Assembly (NCBI RefSeq): GCF_000188155.2
Contig: NZ_KE124774.1
Span: forward strand, 1,246,356-1,310,355
Source: Methylocystis sp. ATCC 49242
GTDB lineage: Bacteria > Pseudomonadota > Alphaproteobacteria > Rhizobiales > Beijerinckiaceae
DNA: 64,000 nucleotides
Direction of reading: 5' to 3'
The position numbers and the translations under genes were made by a program. Position 1 is the first letter of the stretch. Each line of letters starts with the position of its first letter. Positions 5,060 to 56,679 of the stretch are shown piece by piece. Under the pieces are notes generated by a model. It saw only the letters and a program-made list of their open reading frames with translations, searched no databases and was not told where the DNA came from.

Positions 5060-5996
5060 GTGTCCGTCCTGAAAGATGTTGAATCGAATGAATCTGTTGT
5101 GATGGATGGGAGGCGGTCTGATTCGTAGGAGGCCGTCGATGTGGACGAAGGCAAACCGGGCGAAATACAATCGCGACAGGTTACGTTATCCGAGTGATGT
5201 GACGGACGAGGAGTGGGGGCATGTGGCGCCGCTTATTCCTCCGGCCAAGCGTGGCGGGCGCAAGCGTGAAGTGGACATGCGGGCGGTGTTCAACGCCATC
5301 ATGTATGTGCTGAGCACGGGATGCCAATGGCGGTACATTCCCAAGGATTTTCCCCCGAAGAGCACAGTGTATCGTTATTTTTGCGATTGGGCCTGGTGCG
5401 GCGTTCTGGATCGCATGCACGACGCGCTCTACGTCATGTGTCGCGAACGAGCGGAACGAGAGGCGACGCCCCACCGCGGCGATCATCGATAGTCAGAGCG
5501 TGAAGAGCGACGGAAAAAGGGGGGCGCGCATTGATCCGCATGGCTATGACGCCGGCAAAAAGATCAAAGGCAAGAAACGCCACGTACTCGTCGATACGCA
5601 AGGTTTGTTGATGGGCGCCGTCGTTCACGGCGCCGACATTCAGGACCGAGACGGCGGCGTCTTGCTGCTTTCGACGTTGCATGGGCGGTTTCCCTTTCTT
5701 GAAAAGCTGTTGGCTGACAGCGCCTATCAGGGACCGATCTTCGCCGACGCAACGGGCAAAATCCTACCGTGTCTCAAAATCGAGATTATAAAACGATCCG
5801 ATCAGGCGAAGGGCTTCGTGAAATTGCCCATGCGCTGGATCGTCGAAAGATCAATCGCCTGGCTAAACCGCTGTAGAAGACTGGCCAAGGATTGGGAAAA
5901 CCTCAATATCACAGCGCTCGTGTTCCTGCGTTTCGCGTCGATTCGGCTCATGCTACGAAAGCTCTGCAATTGTTGACTAACTTCTGGGACGGACTC
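5060..5996 (+). mobile_element. IS1031-like element (IS5 family), copy 1
   Basis: 937 bp. The ends are GTGTCCGTCC at the left and GGACGGACTC at the right, imperfect inverted repeats. It is flanked on both sides by TTA (5057-5059 and 5997-5999), a TNA-type 3-bp target duplication. Compared with copies 3 and 4 it has two extra bases (near 5467 and 5510), which break the first transposase frame. Confidence 0.9.
5139..5976 (+). pseudogene. IS5-family transposase, copy 1 (two 1-base insertions)
   Basis: The start MWTKANRAKYNRDRLRYPSD lies 8 bases after GGAGG. The N-terminal part (DUF4096-like, DEEWGHVAPLIPPAKRGG) runs to 5492. An extra base near 5467 shifts it to an early stop. A second extra base near 5510 brings the catalytic C-terminal part into frame only from about 5500 (DPHGYDAGKKIKGKKRHVLV, LLADSAYQG, RWIVERSIAWLNRCRRLAKD). 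Other copies express the full protein through a -1 frameshift at AAAAAGGGGGG. This copy is probably inactive, or else the indels are sequencing errors. Confidence 0.8.
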
Positions 5997-6466
5997 TTAG
6001 GTTACTACGGGCTATGAAAATTGTGAAAGAGGACGCTGATGTTTCATTGACGGTTGTTGGAGTGCATCAAGATGAAATTGAACCAGCGTTGTGGACTGGT
6101 CTGAATGTCGATTGGCTTGGATTCGTGGATAAATCAGGCGATAGTTTCATACGCATCGTTTGCGCTCACGATGTGGGCTGTCTTCTCTCAAATGCAGAAG
6201 CAGGAGGAATCGTCCTTAGGGAATACAATAGACTGGGATTGGCGACGCTGGCTCCAGACGTTGGGGGCGCGCCCGAACATGCGCCTCAGGGGGGCGCTAT
6301 TCTGATAAAGCCGCAGGCCTCAGATGAGGAAATTGCAACTTGGATCCGGACCCTCGCGAACGACCGTGAATTACTCGTGTCCTTAAGGCTGGCGTCGTGG
6401 CAAACGAGCCATATGGCATCTTGGGAGCGGGTGGCGGAAAAGCTGAGAGAAGTAATAATTAACTGA
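5997..6466 (+). pseudogene. glycosyltransferase, C-terminal fragment (5' end lost at IS copy 1)
   Basis: Open from the IS edge to the stop at 6464-6466. It reads LLRAMKIVKEDADVSLTVVG from about 6002, the second Rossmann domain of a GT4-type glycosyltransferase, then CAHDVGCLLSNAEAGGIVLR and a GLATLAPDVGGAPEH nucleotide-sugar loop. The N-terminal acceptor-binding domain is missing. The sequence is AT-rich compared with the chromosome. The stop overlaps the ATG of the polymerase gene (TGATG, 6464-6468), so the two were translationally coupled. It is not the missing half of the glycosyltransferase at 21366: both contain the start of the second domain. Confidence 0.8.
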
Positions 6467-6875
6467 TGATCGAGTCAATAATATTTTTCGGATTCGTGTG
6501 CTTCATAACTGCGTCAATCGCCTTTAGATACAGTTATGACACTTTACATCCCGCGATTATTTTTTCCGCTTTATTCTCATTTGTTTATGTTCTCCAACCA
6601 CTTGTTTTGATAGCTAATGATAGCGATAAATTTGTTTTATTCAACGGCTCAGAAGATAACGTAATAACATATGAGTTCATTGTATTATTGATATTTGTGA
6701 GCTTAATTTCTGGTATCTATGTGGGCTCCCGACGGCGGGAGATGTCATCTTCGCTAGGTTATAATGCTTCGCATCTTACAGTGTTGGCCGGTTTAGTTGG
6801 CCTTACGGGTGCTGGTCTTTCATTTTTCTATTTATTTTCGTTTGGCGGCATATCTGAGGTTTACGGGCGTGCTTA

Positions 6876-7809
6876 GAGTCCGTCCCAGAAGTTAGTCAAC
6901 AATTGCAGAGCTTTCGTAGCATGAGCCGAATCGACGCGAAACGCAGGAACACGAGCGCTGTGATATTGAGGTTTTCCCAATCCTTGGCCAGTCTTCTACA
7001 GCGGTTTAGCCAGGCGATTGATCTTTCGACGATCCAGCGCATGGGCAATTTCACGAAGCCCTTCGCCTGATCGGATCGTTTTATAATCTCGATTTTGAGA
7101 CACGGTAGGATTTTGCCCGTTGCGTCGGCGAAGATCGGTCCCTGATAGGCGCTGTCAGCCAACAGCTTTTCAAGAAAGGGAAACCGCCCATGCAACGTCG
7201 AAAGCAGCAAGACGCCGCCGTCTCGGTCCTGAATGTCGGCGCCGTGAACGACGGCGCCCATCAACAAACCTTGCGTATCGACGAGTACGTGGCGTTTCTT
7301 GCCTTTGATCTTTTTGCCGGCGTCATAGCCATGCGGATCAATGCGCGCCCCCTTTTTCCGCGCTCTTCACGCTCTGACTATCGATGATCGCCGCGGTGGG
7401 GCTCGCCTCTCGTTCCGCTCGTTCGCGACACATGACGTAGAGCGCGTCGTGCATGCGATCCAGAACGCCGCACCAGGCCCAATCGCAAAAATAACGATAC
7501 ACTGTGCTCTTCGGGGGAAAATCCTTGGGAATGTACCGCCATTGGCATCCCGTGCTCAGCACATACATGATGGCGTTGAACACCGCCCGCATGTCCACTT
7601 CACGCTTGCGCCCGCCACGCTTGGCCGGAGGAATAAGCGGCGCCACATGCCCCCACTCCTCGTCCGTCACATCACTCGGATAACGTAACCTGTCGCGATT
7701 GTATTTCGCCCGGTTTGCCTTCGTCCACATCGACGGCCTCCTACGAATCAGACCGCCTCCCATCCATCACAACAGATTCATTCGATTCAACATCTTTCAG
7801 GACGGACAC
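6876..7809 (-). mobile_element. IS1031-like element (IS5 family), copy 2
   Basis: 934 bp, opposite in orientation to copies 1 and 3. It is inserted in the polymerase gene with TTA on both sides (6873-6875 and 7810-7812), an ordinary single-IS insertion. It has five G residues in the frameshift tract where copies 3, 4 and 5 have six. Confidence 0.92.
6896..7730 (-). CDS. IS5-family transposase, copy 2 (split frame)
   Basis: Same transposase as copies 1, 3, 4 and 5. With one G fewer in the slippery tract (AAAAAGGGGG), the first frame ends EKGGAH just after the tract. The catalytic half lies in a different frame (from about 7267 down to 6896). A working fusion would need a different frameshift from that in the other copies, so this copy may be inactive. 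Confidence 0.8.
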
Positions 7810-9888: not shown

Positions 9889-10994
9889 CTCGTCCGTCCC
9901 GATATGGCCGGACTCTAATCGCATCTGGTCGAGTTTCTCAGGGGCAGGTCACTCACGGCGAAATCAGATAGCATGAGAACAGTCGTTATTTTCAAGAATT
10001 TTGGTCCGTATCACTTGGCCCGGTTGGCGGCACTTTCCGGAGAGATGGATTTATTCGCAATACAATTGGAAGCGTCTACAAGCGAGTATCCATGGGATCC
10101 AACAGTAGCTACGTCATTCAGATCCTTTACACTGTTACGAAGTGCGTTAGGCTCAAGAGCGCGAGAAGCAGAGTGGGAGCTTCGTCAGATCTTGGACCAC
10201 ATTTCCCCGCAAGTAGTGGCTATTCCGGGGTGGTATGAACCTTTGGCTCTTTGTGCTCTCGTGTGGTGTATAGAAAATAGTCGACAGACCGTGCTGATGA
10301 GCGATTCTCGAATGGAAGATGAGCGCAGGAGCATTCTGAAAGAGTTCGTTAAATCGCGTCTTGTCAAATATTTTAATTCAGCATTGGTAGCGGGTACTCA
10401 GCATTCAAGCTATCTTGTGGCGTTAGGTTTTTGCGAGAAGGCAATTTTCAAAGGATACGATGTTGTCGATAATGAACATTTTAGCAAGAAAAGTAACGAT
10501 TTGTCCTGCAACATAGACGTTGTCGATAAATATTTTCTTGTGTGCAGTAGACTTATCCAACGAAAGCGTGTTGATCTCGTCATTGAGGCCTATTCATGTT
10601 TTAAGAATTCAAATCTTGGCCAAGAAATCAAGCTGGTCATTGTTGGCAATGGTCCTGAAAGATGTAAATTGGAGCGATTGGCTTCTGAGAGCGCTTGGGG
10701 GTCTGATATTATATTTCTCGGGAATAGGGATTATAATTCGCTATCGCACATCTATCAGAATGCCGAGGCATTCATTCTCGCCAGTGATAGTGATCAGTGG
10801 GGTTTAGTTGTAAACGAAGCGATGGCAGCGAGTTTGCCAGTCGTTGTTTCGACAGGGGCGGGATGTGCCTTGGATTTAGTTCGTGAGGGCTTTAACGGTT
10901 ACACCTTTCAGCGTGGTTGTGTTTCTTCATTATGTGAAGGAATGAAGAAAGTTACTGAACGAGGGGAGCGTGTGAGGCTAGGAGAAGGCTCTAG

Positions 10995-11857
10995 AGGGTG
11001 TTATGCACCTTGGATCATGAAATCTGCTGCGCGCTTGAGCATGAGACATGCGAAGGCGACGACGTGGAGTCCTGCGAGGGTCTGAGCATAGCGCTCGTAG
11101 TCTTTGACGAGCCGCCTGCATCGCGTCGCCCAGGCGAATGAACGCTCGACCACCCAGCGCTTGGGCAGCAACACGAAGCCTTTTTTGGCCTCGGCGAGTT
11201 TGACGACGCAAAGCTCGGCGCCCTGCGCCTTTGCGGCCTCGGACGCCTTTTCGCCGGTGTAGCCCTGATCGACATAAACGAGTTCGACGCTTTCGCCTGT
11301 CACATCCTGCACGGCTGCGATGAGCTTGCCGACCTCGGCGCGGTCATCGACATTCGCCGGCGTGACATGCAACGCCAGCAAATGGCCCAATGTGTCGACT
11401 GCCATGTGCAGCTTCGAGCCGCGCTTTCGCTTCGCGCCGTCATAGCCCGCTCGTGGGCCGCTCTCAGGGGTCGAGCGCAAGGTGCGGCTGTCGATGATCG
11501 CCGCCGTCGGCTCCGCCGCCCGCCCGGAAGCGACGCGCAACTGGGCGCGCAGATCCTGCGCAAGCGCCTCGAACACGCCCGCCGACAGCCAGCGCTGCGA
11601 TTGCTGATACACGGCGAACCATGGCGGCAGATCGTTGGGCATGGCGCGCCAGGCGATGCCGTAGCGCAGCACGTAACGCAGGCCGTTGAACAGCTCGCGC
11701 AGCGAATGTTGACGCTGCGGCGCGCCTTCGTCCATGAGCGTCAGATAAGGCGCAACCAGCGACCATTCTTCGTCGCTGACGTCAGACGGATAAGGTTTGC
11801 GAATCGGAGACATCCGATTCTACTAAGACAATCAATCACCAAAGTACATAACACCCT
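10995..11857 (-). mobile_element. IS5-family element of a second type (CTAG target)
   Basis: 863 bp with inverted ends AGGGTGTTATG / CATAACACCCT. It is flanked by CTAG (10991-10994 and 11858-11861), matching the YTAR target of several IS5-family groups. It encodes one 270-aa transposase and is distinct from the IS1031-like element. Confidence 0.92.
11001..11813 (-). CDS. IS5-family transposase, single frame
   Basis: 270 aa in one uninterrupted frame: MSPIRKPYPSDVSDEEWSLV (DUF4096-like N-terminus), PTAAIIDSRTLRSTPESG (first catalytic Asp), VYVDQGYTGEKA (second Asp), KRWVVERSFAWATRCRRLVK (catalytic Glu). Nothing looks truncated, so the element may be active. Confidence 0.92.
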   Translation of the reverse strand: MSPIRKPYPSDVSDEEWSLVAPYLTLMDEGAPQRQHSLRELFNGLRYVLRYGIAWRAMPNDLPPWFAVYQQSQRWLSAGVFEALAQDLRAQLRVASGRAAEPTAAIIDSRTLRSTPESGPRAGYDGAKRKRGSKLHMAVDTLGHLLALHVTPANVDDRAEVGKLIAAVQDVTGESVELVYVDQGYTGEKASEAAKAQGAELCVVKLAEAKKGFVLLPKRWVVERSFAWATRCRRLVKDYERYAQTLAGLHVVAFACLMLKRAADFMIQGA

Positions 11858-12005
11858 CTAGGACGATAATATCTACTTGGGGGCTCGATGCTTTCGTGAA
11901 GGGGATGATAGATGCTGCCGAGTACGCAGCCGGGCAAAGCGTTTTGAAACCGAATCTAATCGAGGGCTTCATTCTGCGAAAAATAGCGCGCCGCAAAGTG
12001 CCTTA

Positions 12006-51633: not shown

Positions 51634-52615
51634 CGGAGCCCGCTCGGGTCCTCTCCCCGCTAGCGGGGAGAGTAGTTTTGCGCCCCTCCTGCCGCCCGCG
51701 ACCACCCTTCGCATCCTCTCCGACGGCCGCGCCGGCCATGAGGCGCAGACGCTGGGGATCGCCGAGGCGCTTGGCCTGACGCCCGACATCAGGCGCATCG
51801 CGCCTCGAAAATTCTACGACTGGATCGCGCCCTTCGGACCGCCCGACCCGCAGGACGCGCCAGCCTTCGCGCCGCCTTACCCCGACATCGCCATCGCCGC
51901 AGGGCGCCGCACGATACCCGCGCTGCGGCGGCTGAAGCGGGATTCGGGCGGCGCAACTTTCACGGTCTACGTCAACAGGCCGACGACCGGGCCGGGAACA
52001 GCCGACCTGATCGTCGCGCCCCGCCATGACCGCCTCTACGCCCCTAACGTCATTTCGGCGCTCACCCCGGCGAATCGCGTCACGCCCGAGCGCCTCGCCC
52101 GAGCGCGCGCCGCGCCCGATCCGCGCATCGCCGCCCTGCCCCGGCCCCGAGCCGCCATGCTGATCGGCAGCGCCGAGGGCGTTGTTTACGATCTCGATTT
52201 CATTGCGAGTTACCTGCTCGCCGCCGGCGAAAGCGTGATGGCGACGCCCTCCCGCCGCACGCCGCCGGAAATCTCACGAATGTTGCGCGGGGCGCTCTCC
52301 GCTCCGGGCGGCTATTTCTGGGGTGGCGAAGGCGAGAACCCCTATTTATCCATGCTCGCCAACGCCGACCGCATCATTGTCACGGGCGACAGCGTGAATA
52401 TGGTGGGAGAGGCCGTCGCGACCGGCGCGCCGGTGCATGTCATCGAGCCCTTCGTGACGCGCAGAAAGCTCAGGGCCTATCTCGCCGCGCTGGAGAAAGC
52501 GGGCGCCATCCGCATCTGGAGCGGTCCTTTCGATGACTGGACCTACAAGCCGATCAACTCCACGCCGACGATCGCGCGCGGCGTCGCGGAAGCCTTCCGG
52601 CGCTTCGCGGCATGA
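51626..52615 (+). CDS. ELM1/GtrOC1-family protein (mitochondrial-fission-ELM1-like)
   Basis: The frame opens at GTG 51626, overlapping the greA stop, and reads through a perfect palindrome (51651-51672). The conserved part begins near 51702 ([20 protein letters not shown]). Then [48 protein letters not shown] and ITGDS-type [14 protein letters not shown]-like [20 protein letters not shown]. The fold is GT-B-like and the family is widespread in alphaproteobacteria with unknown function, perhaps in envelope glycolipid synthesis. The true start is unclear because no good codon follows the palindrome. Confidence 0.8.
51651..51672. repeat. perfect 22-bp palindrome between greA and the ELM1-like gene
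   Basis: CTCTCCCCGC is followed by its reverse complement after TA. It shares the CCCCGC...GCGGGG core with the repeats flanking the DUF559 gene at 54.0-54.5 kb. It may end greA transcripts but lacks a T tract. Confidence 0.7.
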
Positions 52616-54000: not shown

Positions 54001-54045
54001 TTCCCCTCCCCCCGCTTGCGGTGGGGAAGGGTTAGGGGTGGGGGG
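54001..54045 (+). repeat. left copy of the DUF559-flanking palindromic repeat
   Basis: Stem CCCTCCCCCCGC / GGTGGGGAAGGG around TTGC, then GGGGTGGGGGG. Ends eight bases before the DUF559 ATG. Confidence 0.8.
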
Positions 54046-54053
54046 CTCGCGCA

Positions 54054-54428
54054 ATGGGCAACAAATCCGACCGATCCGACCCGAGAACTTCCCGCGCCAG
54101 AGCGCTCAGACGCGACGCCACTCCGGCCGAGCGAAAACTCTGGTCACAACTGAAGCAGCTGGAAATCGCCGGCAGCCACTTTCGCCGCCAGGCGCCTATC
54201 GGGCCCTATTTTGCCGACTTCGCCTGTTATCGCACCCGCCTTGTTGTCGAAGTTGACGGCGAGCAGCACGGCATCGACGCGGCACGCCGCCACGACGAGG
54301 CCCGAACGCGTTTTCTCCAGTCGAATGGCTACCGCGTGCTACGCTTTTGGAACGCGGAAGTCCTGAGTAACCTCGAAAGCGTTGTGGACACGGTTTGCGC
54401 CGCGCTCTACCAAACACCCGAGCAGTAA
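54054..54428 (+). CDS. DUF559 (Vsr-like endonuclease fold) protein
   Basis: 124 aa. N-terminal helix pair [20 protein letters not shown], then [20 protein letters not shown] and [20 protein letters not shown], ending [20 protein letters not shown]. The ADF Asp and the EVDG acidic pair are the metal-binding residues of the PD-(D/E)XK/Vsr-like fold. DUF559 proteins are common in alphaproteobacteria, with no established role. The gene is bounded by inverted repeats and may be a selfish or repeat-linked nuclease. Not obviously in an operon with glyS. Confidence 0.85.
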
Positions 54429-54434
54429 CCGTGT

Positions 54435-54478
54435 CCCCCCACCCCTGCCCCTCCCCGCCGCAAGCGGGGGGAGGGAAA
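54435..54478 (-). repeat. right copy of the DUF559-flanking palindromic repeat
   Basis: Inverted copy of 54001-54045. It begins six bases after the DUF559 stop and ends 23 bases before the glyS ATG, so it replaces the region where a glyS leader or ribosome-binding site would be. Confidence 0.8.
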
Positions 54479-54501: not shown

Positions 54502-56679
54502 ATGCCCGACCTTCTCCTTGAACTCTTTTCCGAAGAAATTCCCGCGCGCATGCAGCGTCAGGCGGCCGACGACCTCAGGCGGCTCGTCACCAATGCGCTC
54601 GTTGAGCGCGGCCTGACCTATGAGGGCGCGAGCGCTTACGCCACGCCGCGTCGCCTTGCTTTGCAGGTCGTTGGCCTGCCCGGCCGCCAGCCGGACGTGC
54701 GCGAGGAGCGGAAAGGTCCGCGCGTCGGCGCGCCGGACGCGGCCATACAGGGGTTTCTGAAAAGCGCGGGGCTGGCGTCGCTCGATCAGGCGAGGATCGA
54801 GAAGGACAAGAAAGGCGCGGAATTCTATCTCGCCGTCATCGAGCGCCCGGGCGCCGAGACGATTCAGGTGCTTGCGGAAATCCTGCCCGGAATCGTCAAG
54901 GGCTTTCCCTGGCCGAAATCGATGCGCTGGGGCGCGGCCTCGGAGCGCACGGACTCGCTGCGCTGGGTGCGCCCGCTCCATTCCATTGTCGCGACCTTCG
55001 GGCCAGAGACCGAAACCCCGGACGTCGTGCCTTTCGAGGTGGACGGGATCATCGCGGGCAATACGACGCACGGCCACCGCTTCATGGCGCCGGCGGCGAT
55101 CCATGTGAAGCGCTTCGAGGATTATGCAATGTCGCTCGAGCGCGCCAGGGTCGTCATCGACCCCGAGCGCCGGCGCGACATCATCCTGCACGACGCGAAA
55201 GACCTCGCCTTCGCGCAGGGGCTGGAGCTGGTGGAGGACGCGGGCCTGCTGGAAGAAGTGGCGGGGCTCGTGGAATGGCCCGTGACGCTGATGGGCAGTT
55301 TCGACGAGAGCTTCCTCTCCATTCCGCCGGAAGTCATTCGCGCGACGATCCGCGTGAACCAGAAATGCTTCGTGCTGCGCAAGGACGGCAAGCTTACCAA
55401 CCGCTTCATCCTCGTCTCGAATATCGAGGCGAGCGACCATGGCGCGACGATCGTCGCGGGCAATCAGCGCGTCATCGCGGCGCGCCTGTCGGATGCGAAA
55501 TTCTTCTACGAGACCGATCTGAAGACAAAACTCGAAGACCGACTGCCGAAGCTCGATCAGATCGTTTTCCATGAGAAGCTCGGCACGCAGGGCGAGCGCG
55601 TGAAGCGCATTGCGGCGCTGGCGCGGGAGCTGGCGCCGATCGTCGGCGCCGACCCCGACAAGGCCGCGCGCGCCGCGACGCTCTGCAAGGCCGATCTCGT
55701 CTCGGAAATGGTTGGCGAATTCCCCGAGCTTCAGGGATTGATGGGCAGCTATTACGCGAGCGCGCAAGGCGAAGACCCGTCTGTCGCAAACGCCTGCTAC
55801 GAGCATTACAAGCCGCAGGGCCAGGGCGACTATGCGCCCAAGGACCCGGTGTCCATCGCCGTGGCGCTGGCCGACAAGCTGGATACGCTCGTCGGATTCT
55901 GGGCGATCGATGAGAAGCCGACGGGAAGCAAGGACCCTTACGCGCTGCGCAGGGCGGCGTTGGGGGTGATCAGGATCATATTGGAAAATGAGCTGCGCTT
56001 GCAGGCGCTGCCAATTTTCGATTGTCAATACAATGTGTTCTCATTCCACGGCAAAACCCTGAAGGAAACCAGTGAAGGGATGGTCGGCACGAGCGCCATC
56101 AGCCTCCTCGAATTCTTCATCGACCGCCTGAAGGTCTACTTGCGAGACAAGGGCGCCAGGTACGATCTTATCGATGCGGCGCTCGGCGCCGTTGCGTTCG
56201 ATGAGTCCGAGGAGGAGACTGCGAGCGCGGCGTTACAGGACGACCTGCTCATGATTACGAAAAAAGTTGAAGCGCTCGATAAATTTCTCGCAACCGACGA
56301 CGGCAAGAACCTGCTCGCGGGCTACAAGCGCGCCGTCAACATTCTGAAAGCCGAAGAGAAAAAGGACGGGCCGCGCGCCTACTACCACCGCCATGCGCCG
56401 AACCTGCGCGTCGAGCCGCAGGAGCACAAGCTCGCCGCGGCCATCGCGCGGGCGCGCGAGGAGACGACTGAAAAGCTGGAGAAGGAAGATTTCGCTGGCG
56501 CCATGCGCTCGCTTGCGAAACTGCGCGATCCGGTGGACGCCTTCTTCGAGCATGTGACGGTGAACGCCGACAACGCCGATCTGCGCCTCAACCGCCTGCG
56601 CCTGCTCGCGGAATTGCGCCGCGTGATGATGGGCGTCGCGGATTTCGGGAAAATCGCGGGAGAGGCCGGGACGGCGTAA
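54502..56679 (+). CDS. glyS: glycyl-tRNA synthetase beta subunit
   Basis: 725 aa from [20 protein letters not shown], the conserved beta-subunit N-terminus. Other marks: [78 protein letters not shown], and a C-terminal DALR-like anticodon-binding part ([20 protein letters not shown]). It works with the alpha subunit GlyQ, whose gene is not directly upstream here. The upstream frame from 54382 is a shadow through the repeat. Confidence 0.95.

Follow-up and report, generated by a model that had tools for sequence, protein, structure and literature searches.

C-rich palindromes bracket a DUF559 nuclease gene upstream of glyS and accompany DUF559 genes in several bacterial phyla

Among the closest described counterparts of the locus reported here are the REP-associated tyrosine transposases (RAYTs), tyrosine (HUH) transposases related to IS200/IS605 whose gene lies between two inverted palindromes. 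In the available parts of the two reports (PMC2817692, PMC3116915), these systems are further characterized by a GTAG-type tag, coevolution of enzyme and palindrome, and a correlation between presence of the gene and abundance of the cognate palindrome. DUF559 genes have been described in other settings, again as given in the accessible portions of the papers: one was assigned to the EDxHD homing family (PMC9403480); the Caulobacter DUF559 protein VsrA was needed for the damage response in cells without a cytosine methyltransferase (PMC12907096); a Deinococcus gene was listed in a table of expression changes upon loss of N4-cytosine methylation (PMC6712171); and in Legionella, DUF559 was located in three repeated segments that recombine (PMC12308824). 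A search of the open-access PMC literature, with subscription journals and preprints outside its scope, returned no report of a link between DUF559 and palindromes in the text available, and no paper in that literature was found for DUF559 together with "transposition."

Within the window (the whole 64,000-nucleotide stretch of Methylocystis sp. ATCC 49242 that was analyzed), a DUF559 nuclease gene encoding 124 amino acids (54054..54428, + strand) lies between two repeats of approximately 45 nt, each with a palindrome on its outer side and a G-rich tail facing the gene. The left repeat comprises a C-rich stem-loop (54001..54031, +) and its tail (54032..54045, +), and the right repeat is an inverted copy, with its tail at 54435..54449 (−) and its palindrome at 54450..54478 (−). 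The initial annotation had described inverted repeats of about 44 bases, with four or five differences, that fit tightly around a gene just before glyS, and all three elements of that description were confirmed: alignment of 54001-54045 with the reverse complement of 54435-54478 showed four mismatches and one 1-nt gap, the gene is separated from the left and right repeats by 8 bases (54046-54053) and 6 bases (54429-54434), respectively, and glyS starts at 54502, 23 bases beyond the right repeat. The gene is intergenic, with a CDGSH gene on one side and glyS on the other; the neighbors recognized by Pfam were a TrxB-like pyridine nucleotide oxidoreductase, the CDGSH protein, and glyS (PF02092). 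An inverted-pair search at the locus returned 49-nt arms that were 80% complementary, with a score of 62, and only 6 of 1,221 placements of the same length elsewhere in the window scored at least 34, the best of them reaching 55. That best control placement corresponded to the ends of two inverted transposase ORFs. Transposase-related features of the window included a DDE transposase C-terminal ORF present in two inverted copies (5500-5976, +, and 6896-7267, −, within 5500-7267), which enclose two short, truncated-looking ORFs, and an IS4/5-type DDE transposase gene (11001-11813, −) between 23-nt inverted arms; the latter element, at 10991-11861, overlaps the end of ORF 9973-11085, which by reading is glycosyltransferase-like.

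The repeats had been proposed to fold as hairpins. As single-stranded DNA, the 31-nt palindromes gave −8.7 and −9.8 kcal/mol, values matched by 10 and 5 of 200 shuffled sequences, respectively; palindrome plus tail folded without advantage, being equaled by 84 and 50 of 200 shuffles, so that the hairpin potential of the repeats is modest. No GTAG tag was found on reading 54001-54045 and 54435-54478, Rfam gave no match at E ≤ 1 at the locus, and PADLOC and PHROGs returned only nuclease matches, all weak. A search of all 4.73 Mb of the genome found the tail (at up to one mismatch) and the head (at zero mismatches) nowhere but in the pair at glyS, with one further head copy at one mismatch, and the only DUF559 match was the one at glyS. 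The repeat is therefore not a dispersed family in this genome, and the suggestion that the nuclease mobilizes a repeat family was unsupported there, because only the two flanking copies exist. A separate C-rich palindrome, previously noted as a related core, lies outside the unit at 51651..51672 (no strand assigned) and has no adjoining DUF559 gene; it is a perfect 22-nt palindrome, CTCTCCCCGCTAGCGGGGAGAG, which belongs to the same general C-rich class as the DUF559 repeat but, with three mismatches to its head pattern, to a different family.

The protein passed the Pfam gathering score for DUF559 (PF04480; score, 127.2 bits; cut-off, 20.6 bits; E = 3.1e-37), and DUF559 and MTES_1575 were its only Pfam matches. 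Pfam found no DDE domain in the gene, which sets it apart from an insertion sequence or MITE with a DDE transposase. A profile search of the PDB returned 3hrl (E = 2e-37), 3r3p (E = 3.4e-5), and, weakly, PvuRts1I. An AlphaFold2 model built from 52 alignment rows (mean pLDDT, 88) was matched by Foldseek to 3hrl, a DUF559 protein, to the catalytic domain of I-Bth0305I (3r3p; E = 1.9e-4), and to Vsr (1vsr; E = 7e-3). The earlier description of the protein as Vsr/PD-(D/E)XK-like was thus borne out for the fold group but not at the level of the Vsr family, for which the score was 23.1 bits against a cut-off of 97.85. EDxHD homing endonucleases have the catalytic residues E-D-x-H-D. In an alignment of 57 members, 12 residues were invariant, including E26, D55, E66, D68, H72, and D81; E26, D55, H72, and D81 are candidates for the residues of this motif. 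By both profile and fold comparison, the catalytic domain is homologous to that of an EDxHD homing endonuclease. Six DUF559 groups had median dN/dS ratios of 0.09 to 0.15; part of TrxB, compared in seven genomes, had a ratio of 0.04, and a same-site comparison with this one neighbor gave 0.15 for DUF559 versus 0.04 for part of TrxB, implying that the gene is maintained under purifying selection but evolves faster than TrxB.

The bracketing of DUF559 genes was surveyed by scoring the best inverted repeat between the two flanks, each of approximately 270 to 280 nt, of every DUF559 match, with placements of the same length elsewhere in the same loci as controls and a score of at least 34 defined as a strong pair. 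DUF559 was present in 29 of 39 genomes of the genus; 94 places were listed, and with a few weak ones left out, the loci read contained 93 genes and fragments (73 full-length genes and 20 fragments). Strong pairs flanked 70 of the 73 full-length genes and 12 of the 20 fragments, compared with 0 of 926 controls. Among the 80 nearest relatives, 59 of the 77 genes with usable flanks had strong pairs (controls, 3/2,628), or 52 of 70 after removal of seven loci shared with the genus set. These values were obtained with flanks measured from the end of the match; measurement from the next in-frame stop codon gave 16 of 76, because several DUF559 genes of the relatives have no stop codon before the right palindrome, which this window consequently missed. 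At L050, located at a contig end, a high score in the stop-based test came from a match without a C-rich palindrome.

DUF559 (PF04480) was also found in 160 of 397 genomes sampled from the phylum. The best match from 90 of these 160 genomes was examined, a nonrandom draw since loci were taken largely in rank order, and 52 of the 90 had strong pairs (controls, 4/366) and 38 did not. A further set of 15 loci from plasmid records, including those of cyanobacteria, Deinococcus, Azospirillum, and Sinorhizobium, yielded strong pairs at 9 loci (controls, 0/76). When any perfect C-rich hairpin up to 250 bp away, on whichever side, was accepted as a looser criterion, positives numbered 83 of 90 phylum genes, 64 of 75 genes of the relatives, and 57 of 73 genus genes, compared with 1 of 5, 8 of 108, and 1 of 10 other ORFs of the same loci, respectively. 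No strong pair was found at the Escherichia coli, Neisseria, and Geobacillus examples; by reading, C-rich relics lie near DUF559 in the E. coli and Neisseria examples. The unit of DUF559 gene and palindromes recurs in several bacterial phyla. At four cyanobacterial plasmid loci (L297, L303, L372, and L374), DUF559 adjoins DUF1156, DUF499, or BREX pglX genes, which are likely to mark defense islands. On a Pseudanabaena plasmid (L301:373-3306), a palindrome-bracketed DUF559 lies within one annotated 4.9-kb coding sequence, an arrangement that could represent an in-frame insertion or a wrong gene call.

Clustering of the 73 genus genes at 65% identity gave 11 groups, of which one contained a single gene, and palindromes and tails differed from cluster to cluster, each DUF559 lineage in the genus having its own palindrome family. 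Protein identity and repeat similarity were correlated across 70 genus genes (r = 0.70; 0 of 2,000 permutations as high) and also across genus pairs below 65% identity (r = 0.36; 0/2,000). Much of this co-variation reflects vertical descent, since members of one cluster mostly share both flanks. Beyond the genus, co-variation was weak: for 56 genes of the combined phylum and plasmid set, r was 0.196 (1 of 2,000 permutations), and for pairs under 70% identity it was 0.106, which was not significant (137/2,000).

Two palindrome families of the genus were dispersed, with higher copy numbers in genomes that had the cognate gene or remains of it. The family of the window was not amplified; its 23 matches at up to three mismatches came from 15 of 39 genomes, and 20 lay at glyS. 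Type-2 palindromes reached 35 per genome and, among the matches listed, often formed inverted pairs approximately 95 to 150 bp apart; they were more abundant in the 8 genomes with the gene or its remains than in the other 31 (P = 5e-5) and when the 6 genomes with intact genes were considered alone (P = 0.0017), both tests ignoring phylogeny. Counterexamples were G004, G009, and G020, with 24, 17, and 12 copies and no gene, and G029, with the gene and only 3 copies. The second family, family 9, was grouped after inspection from two gene clusters with similar palindromes. Its copies were more numerous in the 14 genomes with the gene or remains than in the 25 without (P = 6e-5) and likewise among genomes at least 90% complete (P = 4e-4), again ignoring phylogeny; many of its sites were counted on both strands, because the pattern is nearly its own reverse complement. 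The top counts (109, 102, and 88) belonged to exactly the three genomes carrying one gene sub-lineage, and the counterexamples were G029, G031, and G016, with 40, 38, and 34 copies and no gene, and G001, with the gene and 4 copies. Crossed tests of noncognate gene and repeat gave P values of 0.41 and 0.011. Close reading of 19 places in G006 showed inverted pairs in most, with spacers partly conserved in some family-9 pairs; comparison of a 13.5-kb stretch of G006 with G007 and G022 yielded no usable clean empty site for the gene-less pairs.

Y1 (RAYT-type) transposases were considered as the agent of these palindromes and are disfavored. Matches occurred in 9 of 39 genus genomes at 13 places, 5 with internal stops and others partial. 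Of 17 genomes in which a type-2 or family-9 gene or its remains occur, 12 gave no Y1 match; G022, with 88 family-9 matches, was one of these 12, and an inverted pair scoring at least 34 was present at 1 of the 13 Y1 places. The window genome has one Y1 match, with an internal stop. CGTC-type palindromic repeats were also encountered in G006, at L347:3863-4083 and L347:9873-10023; both G007 and G022 contain many matches to them. The repeat at L347:9873-10023 is missing from G022, which has 14 bp in place of about 160 bp, the only clean absence in the comparison with G006. Identification of the CGTC repeats with the DUF559 repeats was rejected, the two being different sequence classes.

The start of glyS was matched in 36 of 39 genus genomes, and 30 loci were read. 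Eight carry the element with DUF559, one has a C-terminal DUF559 remnant, one has palindrome pieces without the gene, two have a gene-less single palindrome with a right flank as in a filled site, two have a diverged single palindrome, five have a gene-less type-2 pair adjoining relics of type-1 ends (L101, L102, L111, L112, and L095), and 11 are without a type-1 element. The empty-site comparison proposed in the initial annotation thus revealed both empty and single-palindrome sites. The type-2 pairs beside type-1 relics imply that one palindrome family seems to have succeeded another at this site; by eye, the spacer of these gene-less pairs resembles the upstream DNA of repeat-free genomes. 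When the flanking genes were arranged in a tree, 7 of the 8 filled sites fell into one clade (support, 100) together with the single-palindrome, remnant, and relic states; support within the clade was often low (28 to 62), and the position of these states inside it suggests repeated loss. The window genome falls outside this clade and, with midpoint rooting, groups with element-free or diverged single-palindrome genomes. The unit in the window has the appearance of an old, sedentary one of which no dispersed copies persist.

Across the genus, the gene was usually single copy per family and repeatedly lost, with a few signs of relocation. Its inheritance is mostly vertical, and movement is rare, since most genus DUF559 genes are at orthologous sites. 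One genome, G028, has two type-2 genes at different sites that are 94% identical at the amino acid level, with DNA similarity extending over 627 bp and, by reading, ending at the palindrome edges; because the estimated contamination of this assembly is 9%, the duplicate, the only one within a genome, may stem from a mixture of two organisms. For one of the two sites, a good match to one flank was obtained in 16 genomes and none to the other flank; DUF559 is present there in G028 and G029, in opposite orientation, and the remaining 14 genomes have no C-rich palindrome within the 330 nt read. In three Deinococcus species, a palindrome-bracketed antisense DUF559 gene occupies three different gaps of the hpa operon (L298, L376, and L377), two of the proteins being identical at 98 of 112 residues, and in a fourth species a palindrome-bracketed DUF559 is located in the paa operon (L375). 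The differences among the hpa gaps may alternatively represent a change of gene order around a fixed DUF559.

Taken together, the gene and its two inverted palindromes probably constitute one unit, a DUF559 nuclease with its cognate palindromes that resembles the RAYT-REP arrangement and is built on an unrelated enzyme of the homing endonuclease type. We infer that DUF559 cuts the palindromes and mobilizes them. The nuclease would recognize its own palindrome, either as a hairpin, perhaps extruded, or as duplex, and would nick or cut there; break repair by the host could then copy palindromes or pairs to new places, and the bracketed gene would move as well, more rarely. From the recurrence of the pairing in most close relatives examined, a common class of bacterial repeat may be spread or maintained by this type of nuclease. 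The chances are about even that a bacteria-wide class of C-rich palindromic repeats has DUF559 as its cognate enzyme and constitutes a second, independently evolved REP system, in which a nuclease of the homing endonuclease type takes the place of an HUH transposase, generating hairpin pairs and maintaining their populations.

Chance proximity of common C-rich hairpins in palindrome-rich genomes is a very improbable explanation of the pairing. Such hairpins are indeed common in several of these genomes, but strong pairs were found at 0 of 926, 3 of 2,628, 4 of 366, and 0 of 76 control placements, C-rich hairpins lay near 8 of 108 other ORFs of the relatives versus 64 of 75 DUF559 genes, and only 1 of 13 Y1 transposase places had such a pair. 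It is also quite unlikely that the units lack mobility altogether and that the palindromes are regulatory or insulating, serving as terminators or autoregulatory operators of a Vsr-type repair nuclease that may be harmful. The tight spacing on both sides and the vertical inheritance would fit such a role, as would, in the parts of the papers available, the damage response driven by Caulobacter VsrA in cells without a cytosine methyltransferase (PMC12907096) and the Deinococcus DUF559 gene among the expression changes of the N4-cytosine methylation study (PMC6712171). The palindromes of the amplified families, however, are dispersed far from DUF559 in numbers that vary with the cognate gene, and one sequence family is replaced by another, a turnover for which a conserved operator would have no need.

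A selfish gene of the homing type is unlikely, too; here, another agent would spread the palindromes, and DUF559 would cut palindromic sites and be copied into them, hence its bracketed position. I-Bth0305I is the nearest mobile relative by both sequence and fold, a DUF559 gene is classed with the EDxHD homing endonucleases in the available part of PMC9403480, and sites with a single palindrome and the flanks of filled sites exist. Those sites, though, nest within the filled-site clade and look like losses; the repeat families of the genus match the DUF559 lineages; and no other palindrome agent was found, the one searched for, Y1, being absent in 12 of 17 gene-family genomes.

The matter extends beyond this locus: many of the genomes examined contain scattered C-rich hairpins with G-rich tails, and no agent was found for them. 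If DUF559 is that agent, a role would be assigned to a domain "of unknown function" that is found in 160 of the 397 phylum genomes sampled; REP-like biology would have arisen at least twice, with enzymes that are unrelated; and the origin of such repeats could be tested directly, using a protein of 124 residues and a substrate of 45 nt. The initial annotation had named three outcomes against its interpretation, and none occurred: DUF559 genes elsewhere do have flanking inverted copies, the association is far above that in controls, and the arrangement at glyS is not fixed in all relatives. That interpretation as a whole is partly supported. Its likeness to RAYTs stands for the architecture, the single-copy vertical inheritance, the co-variation in the genus, and the copy-number association of the two families tested, and fails for a dispersed family in the window genome.

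Compared with known systems, the unit shares with Vsr a fold group (1vsr), and VsrA of Caulobacter is itself called a DUF559 protein in the accessible part of PMC12907096; it differs in missing the family cut-off, and mismatch repair would have no need of palindromes. No methyltransferase was found among the adjacent genes tested. I-Bth0305I (EDxHD; PDB 3r3p) is homologous by profile and by fold, whereas the DUF559 gene here stands alone between palindromes, outside any intron or intein. The CGTC-tagged REPs, in the available part of PMC3733652, are likewise dispersed palindrome dimers without a dedicated transposase, but they form another sequence class, and the two classes coexist in L347 and look unrelated. 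As in RAYT/REP (REPIN) systems, inverted palindromes stand on both sides of the gene, a genome as a rule has a single gene copy for each family, most dispersed palindromes occur in pairs, their number is associated with the cognate gene, and the gene evolves faster than a neighbor. The flanking palindromes, a RAYT trait, are present in the window and at 70 of 73 genus genes and are not universal in the phylum set (52/90). In contrast to the HUH tyrosine transposase of RAYTs, the DUF559 enzyme is a PD-(D/E)XK/Vsr-like nuclease; its palindromes are C-rich with G-rich tails and without a GTAG tag, and the window's own palindrome family is not dispersed. The DUF559 unit is therefore not a RAYT, since it fails on the enzyme and on the GTAG tag, and in most other features tested it works like one.
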